A stretch of 21,770 bases of DNA from a virus, in the IMG/VR virus record IMGVR_UViG_3300025674_000464, positions 1 through 21,770 of that record. The stretch is one strand, 5' to 3'. Position 1 is the stretch's first letter; each line of letters opens with the position of its first letter. Shown in pieces: positions 3,681 through 19,134 of this stretch. Position numbers and translations under genes: made by a program. Below the pieces are notes generated by a model. That model saw nothing but the letters and a program-made list of their open reading frames with translations, had not been told where the DNA came from and made no database searches.

Positions 3681-5729
3681 ATGTCCAAAAGAAAAGATAG
3701 AAAAAGATACAGTAAAGGTACTAGACAAGACTATACTAAAGGTGGTAGAGTACAAGCTCAAGAAGGTGGTCGTTTTGAATACGATCAAATTAGTGGTTTA
3801 AAAAATCAACAAGCATATGACCCTGTAGCTGCTGCAAAAGCTCAACAAGATGCTGCAGAAGCTGCTGCAAAAAAAGCAGAAGAAGAAGCTGCTGCAAAAG
3901 CTGCTGCAGAAGCTGCGAAGGCTGCAGAAGAAGCAAAAAAAGCTGCACTAAGACAATCTATTGACGATGCTGCTGCTGGTAAAGTTCCAGAGTCTGCAGT
4001 TATAGGTACACCTGTACAAGCAGGAATAGACCCTGTTACTGGACAACCTTTACCAGAACAAAAGGTTACGACTATGGCTGCACCAACTACAGTTCAAACA
4101 AGAACTGCACCGGGTGTTGCACCAGAAAAAGTTACAACTGTTGACACAACTGCACAAGCTAAAACACCAGAACAAATACAAGCTGCACAAATGGAAGCAG
4201 CAAAAGTTGATACAGATGTACAAGTTGAAGCTGCAGAGGGAGCTGTATCCGATCAAGCTATTGCTCAAGCTGCAGGTGTTGAACGTGTAGAACCTATTGA
4301 AGCTGCAGAAGTTGAAATACCAGAAGGTGCTTTAACTGAAAGAGTTGTAGGTACGTTAAGTCCAGAAGCTCAATCAACTGCTGTAATGAACGTTGGTAGT
4401 TCATTGGCAAGAGTTACAAGAGCTAAGAAACAACTAGCAAATGCTGGACTAAGCGATGCAGATATTACAGAGCTTGGTAACGACCCAGAAGCTTTAGAAG
4501 CTAGACTTGCAGACTTTAGTGAAGCTGAAAGAGGTATCATAGCTGGATTACCAGAAGAAGCTTTAGTATCTAATCAAATAGATACATTATTAAAAGGTAT
4601 TGAAGAGGGTGAGATTCCTACATGGGCTGCTCCGGCTGTAGCTAGTGTTGAAGCTATGTTAGCTAAACGTGGTATGTCAGCATCTACTGTGGGTAGAGAT
4701 GCTTTGCTCAATGCTATTATACAATCAGCAATGCCTATTGCTCAGTCTAATGCTCAAGCTATTCAAGCAAGTGTTAGTCAACAAAAAACAATAGAAGCAC
4801 AAGAAGCCGAAGCAAATGCAGCTAGAGGACAGCAGACAGCATTAACAAATGCTAGTAATGTATTCCAACTTAATATGGCTCAGTTTAGTGCTGACCAACA
4901 AACAGCATTATCTAATAGTAAATTCTTACAAACTATAGGATTAACTGAAGCTAATATGGAACAGCAAGGTATTATGCAAGATGCTGTAATGATGTCTCAA
5001 GCTAATCTAGCTGAAGCAGACTTTAATCAACGTGCACAAATACAAAATGCTCAAGCTTTTTTACAAATGGATTTAACCAATCTAAGTAATCAGCAACAAG
5101 CTAACGTATTAAAAGCTCAACAAACTCAGCAACGTTTGTTAAGTAACCAAGCTGCTCAAAATGCTGCAGCTCAGTTTAATGCTACAAGTGAGAATCAAAC
5201 TAATCAGTATATGGCTAGTTTAAATGCTCAGATTAATCAGTTTAATGCAGCTCAACAAAATGCTACAGAACAGTTTAATGCTACACAAGCTAACGCTGCT
5301 GAAGCTAGAGATGCACAAAGACAAGCTGATTTAAATAAGTTTAACACACAGTTAGCAACACAAGTAGATCAATTTAATGCTAATCAAGACTTCGCAAGGA
5401 ATCAATGGAACGCACAGAACATTGCTGCTGTTGAAGCTTCTAACGTACAGTGGAGAAGACAAACCAACGTAGCTAACACTGCTGCTCAGAATGCAGTTAA
5501 TATGCAGAATGCCCAGAATGCTTTTGCAATGTCACAAACTGCACAGTCTTTCTTATGGCAGGAACTAAGAGATCAAGCTGATTTTGATTTTAGAGCTGGT
5601 GAAAATGAACGAAGCAGAATTGCACAACTTGTAAACACTGCACTAGCTTCAGACCCTTCTAAATATAATTCAAGTTTAGGAAACTTACAAAATTTAATAG
5701 GTGTTATAACAGAGGATGTAATAGGATAG
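3681..5729 (+). CDS. Ala/Gln/Asn-rich rod-like internal virion protein
   Basis: 682 residues; probably a virion structural protein. The N-terminus is basic (MSKRKDRKRYSKG) and is followed by a YTKGGRVQ motif at 18-25. Residues about 48-95 are an almost pure Ala/Glu/Lys helix. About 100-330 is a mixed Val/Glu/Ala/Pro-rich region with no recognised domain. Residues 388-618 are at least 21 uninterrupted 11-residue repeats, expected to form a very long helix or coiled coil (separate repeat entry). The composition is rich in Ala, Gln and Asn with almost no Cys. It heads the block of large virion genes and lies four bases before the next one. By position it could stand in for a T7 gp14-type core protein or form part of a DNA-ejection conduit; that is inference. 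Confidence 0.7.
   Translation: MSKRKDRKRYSKGTRQDYTKGGRVQAQEGGRFEYDQISGLKNQQAYDPVAAAKAQQDAAEAAAKKAEEEAAAKAAAEAAKAAEEAKKAALRQSIDDAAAGKVPESAVIGTPVQAGIDPVTGQPLPEQKVTTMAAPTTVQTRTAPGVAPEKVTTVDTTAQAKTPEQIQAAQMEAAKVDTDVQVEAAEGAVSDQAIAQAAGVERVEPIEAAEVEIPEGALTERVVGTLSPEAQSTAVMNVGSSLARVTRAKKQLANAGLSDADITELGNDPEALEARLADFSEAERGIIAGLPEEALVSNQIDTLLKGIEEGEIPTWAAPAVASVEAMLAKRGMSASTVGRDALLNAIIQSAMPIAQSNAQAIQASVSQQKTIEAQEAEANAARGQQTALTNASNVFQLNMAQFSADQQTALSNSKFLQTIGLTEANMEQQGIMQDAVMMSQANLAEADFNQRAQIQNAQAFLQMDLTNLSNQQQANVLKAQQTQQRLLSNQAAQNAAAQFNATSENQTNQYMASLNAQINQFNAAQQNATEQFNATQANAAEARDAQRQADLNKFNTQLATQVDQFNANQDFARNQWNAQNIAAVEASNVQWRRQTNVANTAAQNAVNMQNAQNAFAMSQTAQSFLWQELRDQADFDFRAGENERSRIAQLVNTALASDPSKYNSSLGNLQNLIGVITEDVIG
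4842..5534 (+). repeat. Tandem 11-residue (33-base) coding repeats
   Basis: Within the 682-aa protein, residues 388-618 divide without gaps into 21 blocks of 11 residues. The first ten blocks start with a hydrophobic residue (for example LTNASNVFQLN, LTEANMEQQGI, IQNAQAFLQMD). Later blocks follow a QFNAxxxNAxE/N pattern (QFNATSENQTN, QFNAAQQNATE, QFNATQANAAE, QFNANQDFARN). At DNA level CAGTTTAATGC-like copies start at 5172, 5238, 5271 and 5370, all spaced by multiples of 33 bases. Hendecad periodicity is typical of nearly straight or right-handed coiled coils. Confidence 0.85.
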
Positions 5730-5733
5730 TATA

Positions 5734-6816
5734 ATGGGATTATTTAAAAAAATTAAAAAAGCTTTTAAAAAAGTAACACGTGGTATTAAAAAAGCAGTTA
5801 AAGGTGTTGTTAAAGGAGTTAAAAAAGTAGTTAAAAAAATTAGCTCTAGTAAAATCCTTAAAGCATTAGCTATTGCTGCTGCAGTCGTAGTGACGGGGGG
5901 TGCTGCTGTTGCAGCATTTACTGGAGGTACAGCAGCCAGTGGTACATTTGCTGGATGGATGATGAATGCTAGTCAGGCAGTTACTGGTGGTTCTTTGTTT
6001 GGTACGTCTACAGCTTTAGCCAGAGGTGCAGGAACAGTAGCTAAATTTGTTGCAAGTCCTTTTAAAGCTGTTGGTACAGCCTTAGGAAGTGCTGCTGCAA
6101 CGGTTACAGACTTTACAGGACTTACAACTGAAGCAGGTAGGATGGGAGTCACTCCAGAAATGCAAACTGCAATGGCAGAAGCACAAGTTAAAGCAGGTGT
6201 TCAATTAAGCCCAGATAACTTAAACTTAGAACAATCAATTCAAAGAGTTTCTGATGCTGGAGGAGGTAGTGTGGCTGATATAAAAAGTGCTATTGATAGT
6301 GGCTTAACAACAAAAGAAGCTATTATACAACAAGCATCAATTACAACAACTCCAACTACATTATTAGGTCAAGAACAAGCTGCGATGGCTGCAGCAAAAA
6401 GTTCAGGAGCTTCAGCAGAAACTATGGCATACTTAAGACAACAAAGTGCTCAAACAGCTACAGCTTATGGTGTTCCTAGTGCAGATATTGTAAGTGCTGG
6501 TTTTCCTGAAGCAGCATCAACCAAAAGTTTTTCAGAAAAATATCCGAATACTACCGCTTTTGTTCAGGGTGCAGGTACTTCAGTTGCTAATACAATGTTA
6601 AATACTTATGCTCAATCATTAATGGCAGGAGACCCACCAGGTAGAACAGGTGCTGGAATCGGAGAAGAAGGAGCATCAAGAAGAGACCCTATTGGTATAT
6701 ACAGCAATGCTTTAGATATTAATCCAGATGATTTTACAAAACATTTTACATTTGGTAATACTGTAGAAACTGGTAACATGCCACTCATTCAACAACAAAC
6801 ATTAGAGGTAGCATAA
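5734..6816 (+). CDS. Virion protein with cationic helix and membrane-like N-terminus
   Basis: 360 residues. The first 42 residues contain 15 Lys and one Arg and no acidic residue, with basic residues spaced three to four apart between Val, Ile and Phe: an amphipathic cationic helix. Residues about 43-66 are strongly hydrophobic (ALAIAAAVVVTGGAAVAAF) and could cross a membrane. The remainder is Ala/Gly/Thr-rich with no recognised domain, and the C-terminus is polar. The gene lies between the rod protein and the 244-aa virion protein, and its stop overlaps the next ATG. Location and composition suggest an internal or ejected protein that meets DNA or the host membrane, comparable in idea to T7 gp14; this is inferred. 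No signal-peptidase site is evident. Confidence 0.7.
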   Translation: MGLFKKIKKAFKKVTRGIKKAVKGVVKGVKKVVKKISSSKILKALAIAAAVVVTGGAAVAAFTGGTAASGTFAGWMMNASQAVTGGSLFGTSTALARGAGTVAKFVASPFKAVGTALGSAAATVTDFTGLTTEAGRMGVTPEMQTAMAEAQVKAGVQLSPDNLNLEQSIQRVSDAGGGSVADIKSAIDSGLTTKEAIIQQASITTTPTTLLGQEQAAMAAAKSSGASAETMAYLRQQSAQTATAYGVPSADIVSAGFPEAASTKSFSEKYPNTTAFVQGAGTSVANTMLNTYAQSLMAGDPPGRTGAGIGEEGASRRDPIGIYSNALDINPDDFTKHFTFGNTVETGNMPLIQQQTLEVA

Positions 6817-7550
6817 TGGCAATACCTAATAGAAAAGCAAGACCAATTATTTCAAATAGTGTTAGTGATGTAGCTTCACAAGCTGTTCTTGATGGGTTAG
6901 ATGCTGGATTTACAATCGATGAAATAGCTCCTGATAATGGACCTAAACTCCGAGGAGAAGCTAGGTTTAATCAAGAAGCCTTAGATGAGATTGTTGATTT
7001 ATCTTCACAAGGTGGTGCAATTCCGGGACAAAGTTTAGTCAATGACCCTGCACAACCTTATCCTTGGGAAAGACCTCCAGAGTTTGCTAATCCTAAACAT
7101 GCATTAGATTACATGGTTGGTTTAATATTCCAACCAGAAGCAATGAAAAATATTGTACAAGCTTTAGCAAATGGTGCAGCAGTTGCAGACATTGCAATGG
7201 TTTCACTCTATGCAAAATTCACAGAGGGTAAATTTAATCCTGATGTTTTAATGTTGTTAGCAGAACCCATTATGTATATCATTATGGCAATTGGTGAAGA
7301 AGCTAATATTAAATATAACATCGAAGACAGTAACGATTTAGACGAACTAGATGATGAAGATTATGAAGAAGAGTTTAATAATCAAGTAAATGAATTTAGA
7401 ACTGTATTTGAAGATATTAAAAATGGTACTATGAAAAGAAAAGTAGAACCTGAAAAAATTAAAAGTGGTGTTGTGCCACAAAACATTCTAGACAAAGTTA
7501 AAGAACAAGGTCCAGAAATTAGAAGTTTATTAAGCAAGGGAGAAGAGTAA
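6816..7550 (+). CDS. Virion structural protein, conserved in marine phages (unknown role)
   Basis: 244 residues. Notable features are a central PGQSL...YPWERPPEF segment (residues about 70-92), a helical region with two mostly hydrophobic stretches (about 118-133 and 145-160) and a very acidic stretch rich in Asp and Glu near 170-190. The YPWE-PPEF signature recalls a family of structural proteins in marine phages, recalled from memory rather than searched. No enzyme motif is seen. It overlaps its neighbours on both sides by one base (TAATG), so its translation is likely coupled to the flanking virion genes. A head-tail joining or internal core role is possible; neither is shown by the sequence. 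Confidence 0.6.
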   Translation: MAIPNRKARPIISNSVSDVASQAVLDGLDAGFTIDEIAPDNGPKLRGEARFNQEALDEIVDLSSQGGAIPGQSLVNDPAQPYPWERPPEFANPKHALDYMVGLIFQPEAMKNIVQALANGAAVADIAMVSLYAKFTEGKFNPDVLMLLAEPIMYIIMAIGEEANIKYNIEDSNDLDELDDEDYEEEFNNQVNEFRTVFEDIKNGTMKRKVEPEKIKSGVVPQNILDKVKEQGPEIRSLLSKGEE

Positions 7551-9772
7551 TGGCAGATTTTAAAGAAAGCCCGTTTAAACCTATGTCAGATAGTTATCGT
7601 AAGTTAGCTACAAGTTTATTATCTAGCTCTGATGACTCTTATAAAAAAGATGTATATAAAGGAATAGGATTACAAGTTATTGCAGATGGGTTAAAAGGAG
7701 CTGGTGCTAGTCTTAAGCAAGGTGTTATTGATGGAGCTAATGATGTTAAAGAACAGTATAATGATATTTTTAAAACTAACCAAGCTGAGTATGAATCTTT
7801 TGTAAATGAACGAGAAAGACTAAAAAGATATAATGAAAACAAAGAAACATTTTTAAATGAAGAAGCTGCAAGAGTAATAAATAATACTGATGAAGCTGTA
7901 GCAGCACGGGTTACTTGGTCTGAAGTAGATGAGCAACCTGAAAAAATTAGAAGTGCTATGTATAAAGCATTTAATGATGAACGAGAAAAAATACAAAGAG
8001 AAATGGAATCTCTTTCAGTCGACCCTAGAGTAAAAACTAGAACTTTTCAACAGTTTAATGAACGAGCAAGAAACGAATATCTTGCTGCATTAAAGCTTGT
8101 AGAAGATGACCCAACTAAAAAAGGATTAGTAAGAAATCTTTGGAATAGAGTTTTTAAAACCAAAAGAACTCCGGATGGAGAACTTGTTACAACTAATGAA
8201 AGTTTATTAAAACTTCAAAAAGATTTAGAAGATGCTAAAAAAGAAAGATCAACTTTTAGAGATAGTATTGAAAGGCAACAAGTTATTGAAGGTTTATATA
8301 CGCCTTTAGAATTTCAAAATAAAGACATTGATAGAAGTAGTCTTTACTTTAAAGGGACTCCGCTGCTTCGAGAAGCTGTTAAAAATATTCCAGAGTATGG
8401 AGGTTTAAAAGATGGTTTTTATCACGAAGCTTTAAATATAGTTCTTGATGAAAATCCCGGACTAACATCAGACCAAGCTCTTAATAGAACTTATATGATG
8501 ATTGTAGACGGTCAATTTAATCCTGAGGAATATCAAACACGAGATAAACTTAAAGAAAATGCTGGAAGAAACTTAATTACTTTATATGAAAATTTAAGTT
8601 CAGATGAAAAAAGAAAATATTTTGAAGAAGACCCATCAAGATTATTTAAAGTTGCAGATGCTTATGACAATGATAATCAACCTAATCAAGCAAAAGGTCT
8701 TGGTGTAACATATAAAGATATTTTTGAGGATAACAAATCTCTTGCAGCTACACCTCAACAAAAACAAACTTATATTGAAGTTTATCGTGAGCTGTTAGGT
8801 CAAGATAAAAAAGCAAATAAGGCTGCGTTAGCAGACATTCCGCATCAAGCCAATATGGGTACATATGCTTCAATAGCCGAAAACTATTTTACAAAAAATA
8901 ATAAAGGCTGGGAAAAAGACTATGATCCTCTTCAATTTCAAATTGCTGTATTATCATTTTTAGACCAAAATAAGATGACAACCACACGAATGACTGAAGC
9001 AGATTTAATAGACTTAAGATTAACAGATAGAAGCACAAGCTTTGATGAATCTATATTGGATAATACTCCAAAAATGATTAATGAATTAAGAAAAGCTAAT
9101 AGAGAAAAAGACATTGTAGCCTTAAGAAATAAATATATAGATGTTGTTAGAACAAGCAAAAAACTTGAATTAGATTTAGATGAAAGAGAAGAACTTAGTA
9201 AAAAAATTGATTCTATTTTTATAGACTCTGGAATAAATTTAAATGAAGAAGATATTATATCTGGTGCTATTTATAGTGGTGCAAATCTTACAACTCTAGA
9301 ACCTTCTCTTAGTGATGTAGATTTTAATCCTATGCCTTTAGACGGTGGTTACTATTTAAAAAATGCCAACAAACTTGTATCTCAAATGGATTTAGAAAGT
9401 TTATCTGATGGTCAACTTTTAACCTTGAGATTAAATACTATGCCTAGAGGTGTAGGTCGTTCAAGTTCGTTGCCTGAAAGACTAGGATTACCTTCTGATA
9501 TTTCCTTAGATAGCAGAAAAACATCAGGCTTAACTCCTCTACCGGGAATAAGTGACATATTTGCAACACCTAAAGTTCGTGTGCAATTAAGAAATAGAAT
9601 TGAAAATGAACTTAACAAAAGACAATACTCTGGACCAATTCAAATGGCAAAAAGAGAAGACTTTGAAGTTATTCCTGAAACATGGTGGGATAGATATAGA
9701 ATTGAAAATCCAACAGGTGTAGTTAATACACGAGGATTAACACGTGGTTCAAAATATAATACTCAAGGATAG
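7550..9772 (+). CDS. Large helical internal virion protein (T7 gp15-sized)
   Basis: 740 residues, mostly charged helix, with no recognised domain, signal peptide or clear membrane segment. Charged coiled-coil-like stretches occur at about 70-110 and 205-260. The length is close to T7 gp15 (about 750 residues), and like gp15 it is followed directly by a much larger protein in the position of gp16. On that synteny it may be a core protein ejected to form part of the trans-envelope tunnel; sequence similarity to gp15 was not established. The start shares a base with the preceding stop; three bases separate its stop from the next gene. It ends in a basic, Trp/Tyr-containing tail. Confidence 0.6.
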   Translation: MADFKESPFKPMSDSYRKLATSLLSSSDDSYKKDVYKGIGLQVIADGLKGAGASLKQGVIDGANDVKEQYNDIFKTNQAEYESFVNERERLKRYNENKETFLNEEAARVINNTDEAVAARVTWSEVDEQPEKIRSAMYKAFNDEREKIQREMESLSVDPRVKTRTFQQFNERARNEYLAALKLVEDDPTKKGLVRNLWNRVFKTKRTPDGELVTTNESLLKLQKDLEDAKKERSTFRDSIERQQVIEGLYTPLEFQNKDIDRSSLYFKGTPLLREAVKNIPEYGGLKDGFYHEALNIVLDENPGLTSDQALNRTYMMIVDGQFNPEEYQTRDKLKENAGRNLITLYENLSSDEKRKYFEEDPSRLFKVADAYDNDNQPNQAKGLGVTYKDIFEDNKSLAATPQQKQTYIEVYRELLGQDKKANKAALADIPHQANMGTYASIAENYFTKNNKGWEKDYDPLQFQIAVLSFLDQNKMTTTRMTEADLIDLRLTDRSTSFDESILDNTPKMINELRKANREKDIVALRNKYIDVVRTSKKLELDLDEREELSKKIDSIFIDSGINLNEEDIISGAIYSGANLTTLEPSLSDVDFNPMPLDGGYYLKNANKLVSQMDLESLSDGQLLTLRLNTMPRGVGRSSSLPERLGLPSDISLDSRKTSGLTPLPGISDIFATPKVRVQLRNRIENELNKRQYSGPIQMAKREDFEVIPETWWDRYRIENPTGVVNTRGLTRGSKYNTQG

Positions 9773-9775
9773 TTA

Positions 9776-12700
9776 ATGGCATTAACTTCTTTAACAGGTG
9801 TAGGCATTCTTAAGGGAAGTCTTCCCACTCTTAAAAATAACTTGACAATCGGTTCAAGTTATGCTGGTCGTAAAAAAACCTTAGACGAGTTAGAAAAAGA
9901 TGAACAATTTTTAGAAGTCTCTGAAAGGTTTTTACAATCTGTGGGTGAAAACTCTGATGATGTGTTTGAATATTTAAGAGATTCGGATTTTAATTTATAC
10001 TCTGGTATGAGACGGGCTGCACAAAGTGCTAACTTTACAGATCAACAAAAACAAGATTATAATTATTTAAGAAAAGAATTTGATAATGCTGATTTAGGAA
10101 GTCTTAAACAATTCTTTGGATTGGTTAAAGATGCAGCTATTGATATTACCACCGACCCTACTGCTATTGTAGCAGCTCTTGCTACACCTTTAACGGGAGG
10201 AGCTTCGTTAGCTACAAGAACAGGATTAGGAACAACAGCCTTACAAGTATCTAAAAACTTTGTAGGTCCTACAATTCCTGAAGCTATCATAAAAGGTAAG
10301 CTTAAAAAAGAAGGTAAAGAAGCTGTTAAGAAAGCAGCTCTAGTCACAGGTGCAGAAGTAGGAGCATGGACAGGACTAGACAATCACTTTAGACAAACAA
10401 CTGAACTAAATACTGGTATCAGAAAACTATATTCTACACCAGAGTTAGCAGGTACTGCTGCGTTAGGAACTTTAACAGGTGGATTACTTGGAGGAGCTTT
10501 ACAAAAAGGTAATCTTTTCTATAGTAAAATGAATAGACTTTATTCAGAAGATGGTTATTTAACACTTGAGCCGGGAAGTTTCCAAGATAAAGTTTCAAAA
10601 ACTTTAGAAGCTGGAGATATTGTAAAAGCCAGTACAATAGGTTCGGCAACCTCTATACTAGATACAAAAGCAAAATTTTCTCCGATTACAAGAGAGCTTG
10701 GTAATTTAATGCGAGAAGATTTTAGTCGAGGGTTTGGTAGTGTGACCAGAGAACGTGTAGCTTTAGGACACGGTGAAATGTTAGATACTCTTAGAGGTGA
10801 CTATCATAGAATATTTGATGAAGCTACTGCACCACTTCGTAAGGCTGGTGCATTTAAAGAATCAGACGAACTAGGTGTGATTAGAATTTTAAGAGGAGAT
10901 AAACCTGATGGTTATAGTGAAGACGTTCAACAAGTTGCAAAAGACTTAAGAGGATTTTTTAATAAAATATTTGATGATGCTATAGAAGCAGGGCTAATAA
11001 AAGAAGAAAGAAAACTTCCAAATTATTTTACAAGAAGCTGGGACAGAAAAGCAATTGAAGAAAATCGAGAAATATTTTCAGATTTATTAGTTAGTCAAAA
11101 TATTGTTAAAGATCAAGGAGAAGCTGCTGATCTTATTAATGATATGCTTAATAAAAACAATGAGTTATTTTCTTCGCATTCTATTTTATTAACTCAATCC
11201 AGAGCATTTAAAGATTTAAACGATAACGCTTTTGAAAAGTTTTTAACTAATGATTTAAACACTGTTGTTACTTATTACATGAATGCTGCTAATGCTATAC
11301 AGCATAAGAAAAGTTTTTTATTACCGGGTTTTAGTACAAAATCTAATGAAAATCAATTTGCTGCTAGATGGTTAGACCCAATGGATAGAGAGCTAAGAGA
11401 AGCTAGAGGAGGAAGAGGATTATCTAGAGGAGATAGAAAAAGAATTACTAAGTTATATAAATCTATAACTGGACAAGTAAATTATTTTGATAGTCAACGA
11501 ATTCAAGGAGCTTATGATACTATAAAACTGGCTAACTCTTTAGCGTATCTGCCTTTAGCAACGGTATCATCATTAACAGAAGCCATGATTCCTTTAACAA
11601 AAACTGGTAGTTCTGCAACAAAACCAATTAAAGATGCTTTAAGTGGAATAAAAGAAGGTCATAAAATTTTTGTACAAGATATTCCTATTTTGTTACGAAA
11701 AAAATATGATATGCCAGATTCACAAATACAAAAAGAAATGAATCAAGTATTTATGGCTATGGATGAATCATTAGCAGAATCTACAAACCGTTTAACTGGT
11801 GAAGGGTTACAGAATGATTGGTTAAAAAAACAAGCACGAGGATTCTTTCGACTTAACTTACTTACTCCTTGGACAAAATCTGTACAGTTAGCTTCATTTA
11901 ATATTGGTAAAGGTTTGATAAGAGAAAACTTAGAAAAACTAAATAAGCTTTCTAAAGAAGGTGTAGATATATTTAATGAAACCGCAACAAAAGAACTAAG
12001 CAGAAAAGAAGTACGTAATATTCAGCTATTAAAAAGTGAAGTGTTTGATCTTGGGATAGACATAGAAGATGGATTAAGATGGTTAAATAGTGGAGCTAAG
12101 ACAGGGTTTGGAGCTGAAAGAAAAGACGGTGTTTTAACTGGTCAAATTAAATATGAAGACGAGTTTTATAAATCAGTAATTCAGGGAGCAGGTCGCTTTG
12201 TAAACGAAGTTATTATGCCTGTAGGTAGAGATAGGGCTAGGATTCCTATTTTTATGACAAATCCAAAAGTAGATATTTTAACACAGTTTTTAAGATATCC
12301 TGCTGTTTTTAGTAATACAGTTTTAAAAAATTATATTAGATCAACAGTTACAAATCCTAAAGTTAATGGAGCAAAGCTAGGAGCTTTTGCATTGATGGCT
12401 ACTAGTTTAGCACTGGGTACAAACTATTGGAGGTCTAACGCAGATAACAGAGATAGAATAGTAGAAGAAGGTTTTGAAGATGAAGATTTTTTAAAAGCTT
12501 TTCAAAGGGTTGGATTATTTGGTCCACTTGAATATGGTTTACGTTTTAAAAATTCTCTTCAATACACACAAAATCCTTTAGTCTCAGGTTTAAGTTTGGG
12601 AGGACCTACAGTAACTGATACTCTTGGTTTAATTCTAGGCAGAAAAGGATTGGTTGAAACAGCAGCAGGAAAAATTCCATTCATAGGAACTAAAGGACTT

Positions 12701-14275
12701 ATGGATAAATATATTGGTGCTAATCCATATGATGATTTAAATATCTTTGCAAAAGAAATAGACAAAGAAGCTGCATATGCTTTACGTATAAAAGATAGAC
12801 CAAAAGATCGAAGATATACTCGTACCTATACTGATCTTTATAGAAGTAATTATGCAAAGGGTGGAGAAGTTCAAGACGAATACCCTGTACAATTTGTAAA
12901 GAAAGACCCTAAAGATAGAGAAAGCGATGATTTGTTTGGTGCAAGTTACAAAGAACAAATGGATAGGTTAGGGTTTGATAATGGAGGTGAAGCATCAGGA
13001 CCTCCTAAATTTGAAAAACGAATAGCAAGACCAGACCCTGAGATGTTTATTAAAGACCCTGAATCTGGTAATCCTCAAACGCATCGAATGGGTTGGGGAA
13101 AGATTGATGGTAAATTTATAGCATACCCTACTATCATAGAGCAAGATGGTAAACTTGTGCAGTATGACAATAATACAGAAACAATGAAGTTAATGAAGAA
13201 GAGTGGAAACTTTAAAGCTTTTGATACTAAAGAAGAAGCTGAAGCATATGCTGATGGTAGTTGGAAAACAGATGATTTTAGTAAAACATATCGGAAAGAG
13301 TTTGCCTTGGGAGGATTAGGTAAACTTGTTGGTAAAGAGATTGTTGAAAGTATTAGCAAACCAAAACCTTTAACACAAACAGAACTTAATACAATGCCTT
13401 TAAAATATAGTCAGAAAAAAATATTAGAAGAAGAAAACTTTAAAGGTATCGAAGCAATGCACGGAACACCTAGTGATTTTGATAAGTTTTCTACAGAATT
13501 TTTAATGTCTGGTGAAGGTGCTATGGCATTTGGTAAGGGTTTATATTTTACAACTACTGAAGAGATTGCAAAAGGATACAAAAAAAATATTAGTAAAAGT
13601 CAAGGTATTAAAAAATTAACTCAAGAATATGAAGACCTAATAGGTCAAGCCGAAAACGCTAAGAAAGCTGGAAACAATAAAGAAAGACAAGCTTTACTTT
13701 TAAAAGCTATAGACAAAGATAAAGAGTTAGATAAATTTAAAAGCTCAGAATTACCAGATGATGTTGGACATCTTTATAAAGTAAATTTAAAAACAACAGA
13801 TAACCACCTATTAGACTGGGATAAAAAAATGGAGTACCAACCTTCAGGAGTTGTTAGTGCTGCTGAAACTGCAATAGATAGTTTAGATAATATGCAGCTT
13901 GAAGAGTTTATTACGTTATACGGAAAGTATCCATCATGGACTAAAGATAGAGATAGGGAACAATTAGTGTCAGATGCATGGGTAACTATGAGTGAATTAA
14001 CTGGTGAAGATTTTATAAGTGGGATTAATAAATTAATAAACAAAGGTAATACAGCAGATAGAAAATATGTAGAAGATATGTTGGAAAAATCTGGTGTTAT
14101 GGGGATTAAATATAATGATGGATTTACCAGAAAAACAAAAGGTAAGAAAAAGAAAAACTATGTAGTCTTTGATGCACGTATTATTGAGATATCAAAGAAA
14201 TATGGAATAGCTATACCGGCTGCTGCAGCCCTTTTACAAAAAATAGACAGTGAAAAACAAGAAAGTATAACATGA
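9776..14275 (+). CDS. Giant internal virion protein with C-terminal ADP-ribosyltransferase-like domain
   Basis: 1499 residues, in the position and size class of T7 gp16 (1318 residues). Residues 1-1020 are long helices with several hydrophobic segments (about 128-150, 222-241, 585-608, 866-882). A Tyr-Ala-Lys-Gly-Gly-Glu-Val motif at 1026-1032 opens a modular tail. Residues about 1080-1165 contain DGKFIAYPTI and FDTKEEAEAYAD, a small domain often found in phage virion proteins. Residues about 1225-1478 resemble the polyvalent-protein ADP-ribosyltransferase family: AMHGTPSDFDKF at 1227-1238, GKGLYFTTTEE at 1253-1263, and a C-terminal NYVVFDARIIEISKKYG at 1461-1477. His1229 and Tyr1257 would be candidate NAD-binding residues. 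No lytic transglycosylase motif was noticed. The domain may act on host proteins after ejection, as T4 Alt does; activity is unproven. The gene overlaps the lysozyme gene (ATGA). Confidence 0.75.
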   Translation: MALTSLTGVGILKGSLPTLKNNLTIGSSYAGRKKTLDELEKDEQFLEVSERFLQSVGENSDDVFEYLRDSDFNLYSGMRRAAQSANFTDQQKQDYNYLRKEFDNADLGSLKQFFGLVKDAAIDITTDPTAIVAALATPLTGGASLATRTGLGTTALQVSKNFVGPTIPEAIIKGKLKKEGKEAVKKAALVTGAEVGAWTGLDNHFRQTTELNTGIRKLYSTPELAGTAALGTLTGGLLGGALQKGNLFYSKMNRLYSEDGYLTLEPGSFQDKVSKTLEAGDIVKASTIGSATSILDTKAKFSPITRELGNLMREDFSRGFGSVTRERVALGHGEMLDTLRGDYHRIFDEATAPLRKAGAFKESDELGVIRILRGDKPDGYSEDVQQVAKDLRGFFNKIFDDAIEAGLIKEERKLPNYFTRSWDRKAIEENREIFSDLLVSQNIVKDQGEAADLINDMLNKNNELFSSHSILLTQSRAFKDLNDNAFEKFLTNDLNTVVTYYMNAANAIQHKKSFLLPGFSTKSNENQFAARWLDPMDRELREARGGRGLSRGDRKRITKLYKSITGQVNYFDSQRIQGAYDTIKLANSLAYLPLATVSSLTEAMIPLTKTGSSATKPIKDALSGIKEGHKIFVQDIPILLRKKYDMPDSQIQKEMNQVFMAMDESLAESTNRLTGEGLQNDWLKKQARGFFRLNLLTPWTKSVQLASFNIGKGLIRENLEKLNKLSKEGVDIFNETATKELSRKEVRNIQLLKSEVFDLGIDIEDGLRWLNSGAKTGFGAERKDGVLTGQIKYEDEFYKSVIQGAGRFVNEVIMPVGRDRARIPIFMTNPKVDILTQFLRYPAVFSNTVLKNYIRSTVTNPKVNGAKLGAFALMATSLALGTNYWRSNADNRDRIVEEGFEDEDFLKAFQRVGLFGPLEYGLRFKNSLQYTQNPLVSGLSLGGPTVTDTLGLILGRKGLVETAAGKIPFIGTKGLMDKYIGANPYDDLNIFAKEIDKEAAYALRIKDRPKDRRYTRTYTDLYRSNYAKGGEVQDEYPVQFVKKDPKDRESDDLFGASYKEQMDRLGFDNGGEASGPPKFEKRIARPDPEMFIKDPESGNPQTHRMGWGKIDGKFIAYPTIIEQDGKLVQYDNNTETMKLMKKSGNFKAFDTKEEAEAYADGSWKTDDFSKTYRKEFALGGLGKLVGKEIVESISKPKPLTQTELNTMPLKYSQKKILEEENFKGIEAMHGTPSDFDKFSTEFLMSGEGAMAFGKGLYFTTTEEIAKGYKKNISKSQGIKKLTQEYEDLIGQAENAKKAGNNKERQALLLKAIDKDKELDKFKSSELPDDVGHLYKVNLKTTDNHLLDWDKKMEYQPSGVVSAAETAIDSLDNMQLEEFITLYGKYPSWTKDRDREQLVSDAWVTMSELTGEDFISGINKLINKGNTADRKYVEDMLEKSGVMGIKYNDGFTRKTKGKKKKNYVVFDARIIEISKKYGIAIPAAAALLQKIDSEKQESIT

Positions 14276-15743: not shown

Positions 15744-15940
15744 CTTTGAAAGAAGTTATGTAAGTCTCCCATCTTTATCTTACCATTACGTAGGATAGTT
15801 TTTATAACATCTCTTTCATCTGGTGGAAATATTTCATCCACCATATCCTCCGGTAACATACTAAACTCTGTAACGATTTCATTGTTACGTGTAAGAAGCA
15901 CTTTAAAACTTACTAAGTTCGCTTCACTTGTATTAACCAT
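15722..15940 (-). CDS. Small unknown protein downstream of nrdB
   Basis: 72 residues using the ATG at 15940. A longer form from 15961 is less likely, because a GGAG site sits 7 bases before 15940 and the gene then overlaps the nrdB stop by only 8 bases (ATGGTTAA). It has no membrane segment and no Cys, with a mixed alpha/beta character (SFKVLLTRNNEIVTEFSMLP) and an acidic centre (PPDERD). No family is recognised. It is the last gene of the minus-strand metabolic unit. Confidence 0.6.
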   Translation of the reverse strand: MVNTSEANLVSFKVLLTRNNEIVTEFSMLPEDMVDEIFPPDERDVIKTILRNGKIKMGDLHNFFQRELNVLK

Positions 15941-16916
15941 TATCACTCTCCAAGTTTGCAAAGGTTATCTTATCCTGTCTACCCCTTAGTCCTGCCTTCA
16001 TATAAGAAGTTGCACGACCTTCAAAGAAGTTCTGATGTTCAACACCCATCACTTCATCCAACCAACCTAGAGGATTCTCACGTTGGTCATAGTTTGTTTT
16101 TAGACCAAGCTGTAGTAATCTTCTATCAGCTATGTATCTATTGTAAGCATACATATCTTTCTTTGTAAGACCTTCAAGGTCTCCCATATCAAACACTAGG
16201 TCTAAGAACTTATCTTCTAGTGTTACCATTTGTCTACAAATCTCGTATAGTTCTGCTTTAAAATCATCTGTCCAGATATCTAAGTTCTCTTGGATAAACT
16301 CTCTGAACAACTTAGTCATAGCTTCAACGTGCATAGACTCATCACGTATAGAGTAAGTAACTATCTGTCCCATACCTTTCATCTTACCGAACCTTGGAAA
16401 GTTTAACAAGATTGCAAAGCTTGAGAACAACTGTAGTCCTTCTGTAAAAGCTGAATAGACTGCTAAAGTTTTTGCAATACTTTTCTTGTCAGACTTAGTT
16501 GTCTTAATCTTATGTACGTACTCGTGTTTATCTGCCATCTCTTCGTACTCTGAAAAAGCTTTGTATTCTATCTCAGGCATACCAACTGTATCAAGGAGTA
16601 AGCTGTAAGCATGTTGATGAATAGATTCCATGTTAGCAAAAGAACCCATCATCATTCTAGCTTCAGGCTTTCTAAAGATACGCATGTATCTATCAACGTA
16701 ACCTGCACCAACATCTACATCAGATTGAGTAAACAATCTAAAGATTTGTGTTAATAGATTCTTTTCTTTTGAATCTAACTCTTGCCAATCTTTTACATCG
16801 GTGTGTAAAGGTACTGACTCCGGCATCCAGTGCATTTGGTTTTGTAAGACATAGTAGTCAAACATCCAAGGGTTATCGAATGGTTTGTAATAATCTCTTG
16901 TGTCTAATAAGCTCAT
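15933..16916 (-). CDS. nrdB: Ribonucleoside-diphosphate reductase beta subunit (class I)
   Basis: 327 residues. It houses the di-iron centre and tyrosyl radical that start reduction of ribonucleotides by NrdA. All key residues are present: iron ligands Asp66, Glu97, His100, Glu159, Glu193 and His196, and radical Tyr104. Spacings equal those of E. coli NrdB (Asp84 to Glu115 is 31; Glu204 to Glu238 is 34). Motifs are NMESIHQHAYS, TEGLQLF and RDESMH. The C-terminal tail would dock on NrdA. It starts at ATG 16916 with GAGGAG upstream and overlaps the stop of the 59-aa gene by four bases. With nrdA it should raise dNTP supply for phage replication. Confidence 0.95.
   Translation of the reverse strand: MSLLDTRDYYKPFDNPWMFDYYVLQNQMHWMPESVPLHTDVKDWQELDSKEKNLLTQIFRLFTQSDVDVGAGYVDRYMRIFRKPEARMMMGSFANMESIHQHAYSLLLDTVGMPEIEYKAFSEYEEMADKHEYVHKIKTTKSDKKSIAKTLAVYSAFTEGLQLFSSFAILLNFPRFGKMKGMGQIVTYSIRDESMHVEAMTKLFREFIQENLDIWTDDFKAELYEICRQMVTLEDKFLDLVFDMGDLEGLTKKDMYAYNRYIADRRLLQLGLKTNYDQRENPLGWLDEVMGVEHQNFFEGRATSYMKAGLRGRQDKITFANLESDNG
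15948..15951 (-). promoter_or_regulatory. Ribosome binding site that decides the 15940 start
   Basis: On the minus strand GGAG (15951-15948) lies 7 bases upstream of the ATG at 15940, inside the 3' end of nrdB. The earlier in-frame ATG at 15961 has no comparable site, so the shorter 72-residue product is preferred. Confidence 0.6.
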
Positions 16917-17092
16917 CTGTTCTCCTCGTTAAATCTCTTAACTAAATATTTAAAATTTTCAATTACATATCCTGCGTAATCTTTTGTTTTTGCGAATGGA
17001 TTATTATTTTCATCACAATAATCTAACCACATCCTACTTGTAAAGCCTGAAAACTTTTGACTAAACACCTTGTCAAATTCTGATTGTTTCAT
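16913..17092 (-). CDS. 59-residue unknown protein between nrdA and nrdB
   Basis: A short minus-strand frame from ATG 17092 to TGA 16913 encodes 59 residues, beginning MKQSEFDKVFSQKFSGF and ending KRFNEENR. It is helical, charged and aromatic-rich (SRMWLDYCDENNNPF in the middle), with one Cys and no membrane segment. Support for it being real: AAGGA upstream, one base between it and the previous gene, and a four-base overlap (ATGA) with nrdB. No family is recognised. Placement inside the reductase operon may mean a linked role, but short phage genes are often unrelated to their neighbours. Confidence 0.6.
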   Translation of the reverse strand: MKQSEFDKVFSQKFSGFTSRMWLDYCDENNNPFAKTKDYAGYVIENFKYLVKRFNEENR

Positions 17093-17093
17093 A

Positions 17094-17237
17094 TTAATCC
17101 TTTGGTAAATAAACTATAACAGCCGAGTTACATTTAGGGCAACTTAAATTAGTTTCCATAATGTACTCATCGTTCTCATCTTCTATGTCGTGATCTCCAC
17201 CCCATATTAATTGTGTTCCACAGTGCCAACAATCCAT
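17094..17237 (-). CDS. 47-residue zinc-ribbon-like protein between nrdA and nrdB
   Basis: A minus-strand frame from ATG 17237 to TAA 17094 encodes 47 residues. It contains two CxxC knuckles, Cys3-Trp-His-Cys6 and Cys33-Pro-Lys-Cys36, separated by an acidic middle rich in Asp and Glu. This is the pattern of a small zinc ribbon. It starts one base after the nrdA stop, with GAGGG just upstream, and is followed one base later by the 59-aa gene. Possible roles are nucleic-acid or protein binding; a redox role next to ribonucleotide reductase is also possible, though the CxxC pairs look structural rather than thioredoxin-like (no WCGPC). Confidence 0.65.
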   Translation of the reverse strand: MDCWHCGTQLIWGGDHDIEDENDEYIMETNLSCPKCNSAVIVYLPKD

Positions 17238-17238
17238 A

Positions 17239-19134
17239 TCAACCCTCACAAGCTATACACTCAGCATCATCTAGTTTAATACGCTGAACTTTAACGTTTA
17301 CATTTTCTGCATTTCTAGCAGCATTAGTTCTAAAGTAATACAAAGACTTTAGTTTGTTCATGCCATACCAGTGTACATCATTAACGTACTGCATGTACTC
17401 ATCGTGTACTTCCTGTGGCTCTGTAGCTTTAGGAAGTGTAAAGAAAAGATTAACAGATTGTGCTTGACAAATAAACTCTTGTCGTTTAGATGCGTGTTCT
17501 ATAATCCATATCTGGTCTATCTCATTAGCAGTTTTAAATATTTCTTTTTCTTCCTCGGTTAATATATCTAGATGCTGGACTGAACCTTCGTTACCTGCAA
17601 TGTCTTTCCACAATGCAGTCAACTCATCTTTCTTTAAACCTTTGTCTTGTAATACTTCTTCTAAGTATTTGTTCTTTACTTGGAAAGAACCTGAGAGAGT
17701 CTTGTGCGTATAAACGTTAGCACGATATGGCTCAATCGAAGGAGAAGTACCACCACATATGATGCTAGAACTAGCGTTAGGAGCAACAGCGAGTAAATGA
17801 GCGTTCCTCCTGCCACTACCACTGACATCAGGAGCTTCGCCCCTTTCGTCTGCAAGTCTTTCAGAAGCTTTGGTTGCCTGTTTTTTAATGTATTTAAAAG
17901 CTTTATGATTGAAGCCCGTAGCGAAGATACCTTCAAAAGGAATGTTGCGTGATTGGAGATACGAATGGAAGCCCATCGCACCGAGACCCAACGACCTTTC
18001 TCGATAAGCAGAGTAGGCAGATTTAGTAAAGCCTTCTTTGCCCGGCTTAATATGTTTTTGAAATCTTTTAAAGTTTGCATTGTACTCTCCTAAGTTATCT
18101 GTGTCGACAGCGTTATCAATATAATGTTGAAGAACATTGTCAAGCATGGTAATTAAATCTTCAATGAACACAGGGTTCTCACTCCACTCATCAAAGTATT
18201 CTAAGTTGACAGAAGATAAACAACAAACTGCTGTCCTCTCTTCATTTGTAGGTAAAGTAATCTCAGAACAAAGATTGCTCTGTTTGATTTCTAATCCTAA
18301 ATCTTTTTGTTGTTTGGGTAAAGCTTCATTACATCTATCAATGTTGACCATGTAAGGTTCACCTGTCTCTGCTCTAGCGTTAATGATCTGCCACCATAAG
18401 TCTCTAGCATTAACAACCTTAATCGCTTCATTACTTTTAGGGTCTACCAATCTCCAGTCTGCATCATCTTCAACAGCTTTCAAAAACTCATTGGTAATGT
18501 TAATACCGTTGTGAAGATTAAGATTCTTACGATTGATATCTCCACCTGATTCTTTACGCATGTTAATAAACTCTTCAATCTCTGGATGAGATATGTCCAT
18601 GTATGCTGCATAAGAACCTCGTCTTGTCGTGCCTTGATTAAAGGCTAACATCTGTGAATCAACTACATGGATGAAAGGAATTGAACCAGTAGACTTACTA
18701 CCGTGAGTAGTAGAAACACCGTTACTCCGGATGTCTCCCCAATATCCACCAATACCTCCACCTGAACTTGCCAACCAAATATTCTCGTCATAATGATCTG
18801 ATAGACCAGTCCTGCTATCAGGTACATAATTGAGGAAACAGCTAATAGGAAGACCACGACTTGTTCCCCCGTTACTAAGTATAGGAGTGCTAAACATGAA
18901 CCAACAAGAGGAACTGTAGTGATAAAGTCTTTGAGCCAATTCAAAATCTGTGTTCCCTTTGTAGGTGGCTGCGAAGACTGATGCTCTGGCAAATGCTTCT
19001 TGTGCATGTGTTTCATTCTCCCATAAGTATCTATCCTTAAGTGTGTCAAGGCTGAACTTATCTAAATTTTTTTCGTTACTATAATTTATTTTTATACCAA
19101 GATATTCCTTGATACCTACTTTATCATCTACCAT
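17239..19134 (-). CDS. nrdA: Ribonucleoside-diphosphate reductase alpha subunit, no ATP-cone
   Basis: 631 residues. Catalytic subunit converting ribonucleoside diphosphates to deoxy forms, using the radical passed from NrdB. Active-site residues are visible: Asn287, Cys289 and Glu291 (SNLCSEI), redox Cys99 (ISCFLNYV) with partner Cys304 (TAVCCLSS), the radical-transfer pair Tyr599-Tyr600 (LKSLYY) and the C-terminal reducing pair Cys626 and Cys629 (CIAC). It is about 130 residues shorter than E. coli NrdA (761), and the N-terminal ATP-cone is absent: the catalytic-domain start (LDTLKDRYLW) lies near residue 29. It should therefore escape overall dATP inhibition through that domain. The start overlaps the preceding stop (TAATG). 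The reading frame is continuous; no intein or intron is seen. Confidence 0.95.
   Translation of the reverse strand: MVDDKVGIKEYLGIKINYSNEKNLDKFSLDTLKDRYLWENETHAQEAFARASVFAATYKGNTDFELAQRLYHYSSSCWFMFSTPILSNGGTSRGLPISCFLNYVPDSRTGLSDHYDENIWLASSGGGIGGYWGDIRSNGVSTTHGSKSTGSIPFIHVVDSQMLAFNQGTTRRGSYAAYMDISHPEIEEFINMRKESGGDINRKNLNLHNGINITNEFLKAVEDDADWRLVDPKSNEAIKVVNARDLWWQIINARAETGEPYMVNIDRCNEALPKQQKDLGLEIKQSNLCSEITLPTNEERTAVCCLSSVNLEYFDEWSENPVFIEDLITMLDNVLQHYIDNAVDTDNLGEYNANFKRFQKHIKPGKEGFTKSAYSAYRERSLGLGAMGFHSYLQSRNIPFEGIFATGFNHKAFKYIKKQATKASERLADERGEAPDVSGSGRRNAHLLAVAPNASSSIICGGTSPSIEPYRANVYTHKTLSGSFQVKNKYLEEVLQDKGLKKDELTALWKDIAGNEGSVQHLDILTEEEKEIFKTANEIDQIWIIEHASKRQEFICQAQSVNLFFTLPKATEPQEVHDEYMQYVNDVHWYGMNKLKSLYYFRTNAARNAENVNVKVQRIKLDDAECIACEG

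Follow-up and report, generated by a model that had tools for sequence, protein, structure and literature searches.

The window, that is, the whole 21,770-base stretch of virus record IMGVR_UViG_3300025674_000464 analysed here, belongs to an HMO-2011-type podophage; phages of this type are a very common marine group. Five consecutive open reading frames (ORFs) on its plus strand, following the tail-fibre genes, occupy positions 3681 to 14275. The first encodes a protein of 682 residues with a long periodic region, which is referred to as the rod. The features of the locus are listed below in window coordinates.

3681-5729, plus strand: coding sequence of the rod protein (P0001, 682 residues), an ORF with homologues in 57 IMG/VR loci and 26 phage records
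3681-4613, plus strand: N-terminal part, of low complexity, rich in Ala, Pro and Gln and highly variable in length across homologues
4614-4754, plus strand: conserved N anchor, residues 312-358 (IPTWAAPAV...MPIAQSNA), with invariant P, W and A columns
4737-5654, plus strand: stretch without proline, residues 353-658, between Pro at positions 352 and 659
4842-5534, plus strand: 21 consecutive 11-residue blocks, residues 388-618, seen in the block list, the autocorrelation and the register test
4842-5171, plus strand: N-terminal half of the rod, residues 388-497, with a hydrophobic position 1, secondary positions 4 and 10, and a 22-residue super-period
5172-5534, plus strand: C-terminal half of the rod, residues 498-618, with QFNA-type blocks and a seam at positions 2, 6 and 10
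5373-5618, plus strand: C anchor, residues 565-646, including W591 (SNVQWRR) and W626 (SFLWQE)
5734-6816, plus strand: ORF of 360 residues, the second gene of the block, cysteine-free and variable in size (50 to 509 residues in relatives)
6816-7550, plus strand: ORF of 244 residues (135-262 in the family), cysteine-free
7550-9772, plus strand: ORF of 740 residues (335-964 in the family), cysteine-free, with a mostly helical AF2 model
9776-14275, plus strand: ORF of 1499 residues, cysteine-free

Relatives found by tblastn include HMO-2011-type podophages of SAR116, SAR11 and Roseobacter hosts, many IMG/VR contigs, and related phages of Vibrio, Aeromonas, Pseudoalteromonas and rhizobia. A single-protein scan also gave one remote match in a Maricaulis MAG (L462). 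The phage records examined annotate the homologues as hypothetical, with one exception labelled 'huntingtin', a name that presumably stems from the glutamines. Elsewhere in the window (15933-19134), a two-subunit NrdA/NrdB-like ribonucleotide reductase is encoded, and the enzymes at a comparable place in HMO-2011, CRP-1 and phiM6 are annotated as B12-dependent.

The 21 gap-free blocks reported by the first-pass annotation were confirmed, and residues 388-618 correspond exactly to positions 4842-5534. The block list also agrees with its description of two block types. Blocks 1 to 10 open with L, M, L, L, M, L, I, L, V and L, and the blocks that follow read QFNAT..., QYMAS..., QFNAA... and QFNAT.... 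Over the 21 blocks, position 3 is Asn in 14, position 4 is Ala in 14 and position 9 is Gln in 11. The suggested check of the protein by autocorrelation at period 11 gave peaks solely at multiples of 11, with identity z-scores of 4.4, 5.3, 8.1 and 6.9 at lags 11, 22, 33 and 44 (2000 shuffles) and values below 3 at every other lag up to 43. The periodicity and the absence of proline reach beyond the 21-block span, over a stretch of 306 residues (353-658). Its composition (35% Asn plus Gln, 20% Ala, 22.5% LIVMFWY) bears out just half of the poorly hydrophobic surface that had been described, as the hydrophobic residues sit in defined seams. In the C-terminal half they gather at positions 2, 6 and 10, which form a 4-4-3 hendecad seam in which Phe dominates position 2. 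In the N-terminal half, the main seam is formed by positions 1 and 4 on the opposite side of the helix, with a second at position 10, and a 22-residue super-period is present. Both seams (2-6-10 and 1-4) have the 3/4-residue spacing, which fits a helix that uses one or two faces for packing and has amide-rich ones remaining.

The register was measured across homologues by a procedure that requires no alignment of the repeats. Two anchors, the conserved segment ahead of the rod and the segment holding W591, were located in each homologue by profiles, and the distance between P352 and W591 (window numbering) was then counted. This distance equals 8 modulo 11 in 377 of 378 distinct homologous regions; the raw count was 378 of 379, from which L213, with a distance of 30 residues caused by truncation at a contig end, was removed. 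The sole exception, L390, is shifted by +1 through a single Asn insertion adjoining the C anchor. With W626, which lies in the C anchor beyond the repeats, as the endpoint, 340 of 341 regions are in phase. As a control in the same proteins, the distance from W626 to the stop codon is flat modulo 11, its 47 values covering all residues modulo 11. A +7 indel that appeared in L048-L053 proved to be an artefact of a MAFFT alignment cut to the last 460 residues, which had lost the N anchor; the full-length sequences are in register. Freely varying spacing among homologues, named beforehand as the observation that would count against the repeat, is thus the opposite of what was found.

The number of units varies widely within this register. 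The in-register lengths take 24 distinct values from 118 to 866 residues, equivalent to 10 to 78 blocks (21 in the window), and include the odd unit numbers 13, 15, 19, 21, 25, 27 and 33. A tree with 187 tips, computed from the anchor regions and leaving out most of the rod, requires at least 43 changes of unit number by parsimony; errors in the tree could inflate this count, and the 24 distinct lengths set its floor. Judged by the indel positions, much of this variation lies in the rod's N-terminal half or immediately ahead of it. The 11-residue register is therefore under strict selection while the unit number is free to change, because indels of other sizes must arise and yet are almost never retained.

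Proline is excluded from the rod. Among 131 non-redundant homologues, none of 36,994 rod residues is Pro, compared with 6.26% upstream, and Gly makes up 1.1% of the rod. The N-terminal part of the homologues contains 6.3% Pro and 8.4% Gly, and the position of the N anchor ranges from 27 to 1012. A low-confidence AF2 monomer model of residues 301-682 (40 sequences; mean pLDDT 62.7, pTM 0.37) contains one continuous helix of 154 residues at 504-657, and residues ~400-500 are split into short helices with a spacing of ~22 residues and a bundle-like packing. The length of about 35 nm calculated by the first-pass annotation stands as arithmetic and is conditional on a continuous helix, which the monomer model breaks at ~400-500. 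Short folded-back helices had been named as contrary evidence, and the model provides them in part: the broken stretch agrees with that picture and the helix at 504-657 does not. A monomer model of a rod that would form assemblies is weak evidence, yet the case against a continuous N-terminal half is built mainly on it. A Foldseek search with the low-confidence rod model gave no match at E<=0.001, and the looser list contained common helical arrangements only.

A conserved block of cysteine-depleted genes begins with the rod gene, which is followed by a variable ORF and by proteins of ~185, ~550 and >800 residues. The order of rod, variable ORF, a 130-290-residue protein and a 330-1000-residue protein, separated by short gaps, was observed in 90 of the 93 loci that extend far enough downstream, and 266 loci overall show it; in the annotated relatives, a further protein of 817-1671 residues comes next. 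The five window ORFs contain no Cys in 3525 residues. In six annotated relatives, the block contains 3 Cys in 16,495 residues versus 123 in 20,425 residues of sampled other genes, and the rod proteins across the family contain 13 in 302,148. Known ejected proteins are similarly poor in this residue (T7 gp14-16, 1 in 2261; P22 gp7/gp20/gp16, 0 in 1309; phiX174 H, 0 in 328), and Cys is present in P22 gp14 and gp9 and in phiX F and G. The tail needle of P22, gp26, is also cysteine-free, so the depletion is supportive and neither specific nor proof. Such depletion may mark ejected phage proteins in general.

Several features of the individual block proteins were recorded. The 360-residue product (5734-6816) carries an N-terminal polybasic amphipathic stretch followed by a hydrophobic Ala/Val segment and, judged by these segments, looks membrane-active. 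The AF2 model of the 740-residue protein was searched for a gp15-like tunnel and gave no PDB match, an absence from the list that is compatible with relatedness; a PDB profile search with this protein found no ejection protein. Between L004 and the window, identity is 88% in the rod protein and about 34% in the 740-residue protein, a pattern that suggests module exchange or strong diversifying pressure on the latter. Near the C-terminus of the 1499-residue protein, residues 1229-1276 weakly match ART-PolyVal (ADP-ribosyltransferase), a match that lies below the Pfam cut-off. A short KGGxV motif is located near the N-terminus of the rod protein (window 3738-3770) and at residue ~1028 of the 1499-residue protein. 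Upstream of the N anchor, 82 of 372 rod homologues carry KGGx[VIMLA], compared with about 15 predicted from shuffled sequences; the motif is possibly a packaging or processing signal.

Searches with the rod protein gave no PHROG or Pfam family match up to E=1, chance-level ribosomal proteins as the only PDB sequence matches, and no ejection protein in PDB profile searches. It was therefore compared with known systems by its properties. The H tube of phiX174 is a decamer with hendecad and heptad segments, in which N, Q or R account for 18 of 23 inward residues (PMC7354561). The rod shares with H a hendecad helix rich in Asn and Gln and the lack of cysteine, and period 11 is measurable in H by the same test (z 3.8). 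H has three hendecads followed by heptads, whereas the rod family has 10-78 unbroken hendecads; H belongs to an ssDNA microvirus and the rod to a dsDNA podophage, and sequence homology was not found in the Pfam scan. The ejection proteins T7 gp14/gp15/gp16, P22 gp7/gp20/gp16 and DEV gp73/gp72/gp71 are encoded, like the block, by adjacent genes of rising size and have the role proposed here for the block; those of T7 and P22 share its cysteine depletion (DEV was left out of the count). Unlike the rod, the T7 and P22 proteins lack period 11, and neither a sequence match between T7-type ejection proteins and the rod nor, with the low-confidence models, a fold match was found. The rod gene stands as an extra gene upstream of a size series like that of T7 gp14-gp15-gp16. 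The tape measure proteins of siphophages likewise consist of 11-residue units with a W/F marker, which change by duplication and loss (PMC3271669). Their marker differs from that of the rod, which is mainly Phe and confined to one half; the rod is also rich in Asn and Gln, and its gene neighbourhood differs. By the tests run, the rod protein lies outside the H family, the T7 ejection families and the tape measure proteins, and, if the role proposed for it holds, it works most like the first two.

On balance, we favour a long α-helical hendecad rod (11 residues per three turns) within a protein that this HMO-2011-type podophage probably ejects. The products of the block would be carried inside the head and expelled before the DNA. 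Several rods would pack side by side in register through their hydrophobic seams, and each change in length would comprise whole three-turn units, keeping every seam on its face; such lateral packing would restrict length changes to these units. The amide-rich face might, less certainly, line the path of the DNA or touch it, as in the phiX174 H tube. The rod probably helps to carry phage DNA into the host. The idea that its length is set to cross the envelope is not supported, since the homologous rods vary from 10 to 78 blocks (roughly 18-130 nm), a wider range than Gram-negative envelope thickness would account for. The longest rods, with 70-78 units, would measure about 115-130 nm when straight; this is too long for a simple tube across the envelope and weighs against the ejected rod. 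The literature yielded no virion proteome of an HMO-2011-type phage or proteomic proof of the rod protein in the virion. A paper on a hendecad rod in podophages was likewise not found in the literature searched, which lay mostly outside subscription journals.

The regular spacing and the helical form can each be explained in another way. Slippage or unequal recombination of repeated DNA could create the register as a neutral by-product, and tandem duplications of 330 bp (110 residues, ten units) do enlarge some long relatives (L182 and L223). Family lengths such as 228, 338, 448, 558, 668 and 778 rise by 110 residues. Super-repeats of 110 residues were observed in the long rods of L182, L223, L458 and L456. 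In the window rod, however, Tandem Repeats Finder detected no 33-bp array, and the DNA identity at lag 33 is 38% compared with 29% at lags 30 and 36; copying errors alone thus do not hold the phase. Neutral drift would also introduce indels of other sizes, which just one of the 378 sequences contains. The neutral account is largely refuted, and we find it hardly credible. It is quite unlikely that the blocks are instead short helices of a bundle or solenoid, with a 22-residue unit of helix plus turn and no long rod in the N-terminal half. The helix breaks at ~22-residue spacing in the AF2 monomer and the 22-residue super-period with its N/S/D-rich segments point in this direction. The conserved quantum, however, is 11 rather than 22 or 44, as the odd unit numbers demonstrate, the supposed turns are entirely without proline, and the model has a low pLDDT and contains a single chain.

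Two further explanations accept a rod and give it another role. It could belong to an external trimeric fibre or spike as its shaft, a right-handed coiled coil of the trimeric-adhesin type whose length follows that of the fibre. The position of the gene after the tail-fibre genes and the wide range of rod lengths agree with a shaft, and the homologues L071 and L072 (Roseobacter phages CRP-3 and CRP-738) end in a Peptidase_S74 intramolecular chaperone domain, which is usual in trimeric fibres. The match of L072 to a PHROG 'DNA ejection protein' runs through this S74 tail alone and was not counted as evidence. A Pfam scan detected no S74 domain at the C-terminus of the window protein, which ends shortly past the rod with no receptor-binding domain. 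Undecad coiled coils are known from the adhesin NadA, whose stalk shares the 11-residue coiled-coil logic and differs in being that of a bacterial surface adhesin (PMC6191539). The close, conserved linkage of the rod to the downstream genes, and their common depletion of Cys, compared with 5 Cys in 841 residues of the window fibre ORFs, argue against the shaft, which we regard as unlikely. A role as a length ruler or packing spine, gauging an internal core or a transient conduit in the manner of a tape measure, is very unlikely. Whole units are gained and lost as in tape measure proteins, and Phe dominates position 2 in the C-terminal half. The relatives CRP-1 to CRP-3, however, are short-tailed podoviruses (PMC6918029), which leaves a ruler without a long tail tube, and the length of ORF+3 does not track that of the rod (Spearman 0.05). 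Rod length correlates with that of the upstream part (0.58) and of ORF+1 (0.37), figures that ignore kinship and support no conclusion here.

As a tentative extension of the ejected-rod reading, the family may represent rods or tubes of a new class by which tailed phages deliver DNA, evolvable in length in exact three-turn units (about 10-78) and lined with amides like the unrelated phiX174 H tube. If true, DNA translocation would have been solved convergently, and the relatives with 10 to 78 units would provide a natural length series on what sets the length of the conduit. The near-absence of cysteine may aid the recognition of ejection proteins in phages that lack annotation, and the strict 11-residue quantisation gives direct access to testing how a transient conduit might be built by podophages.
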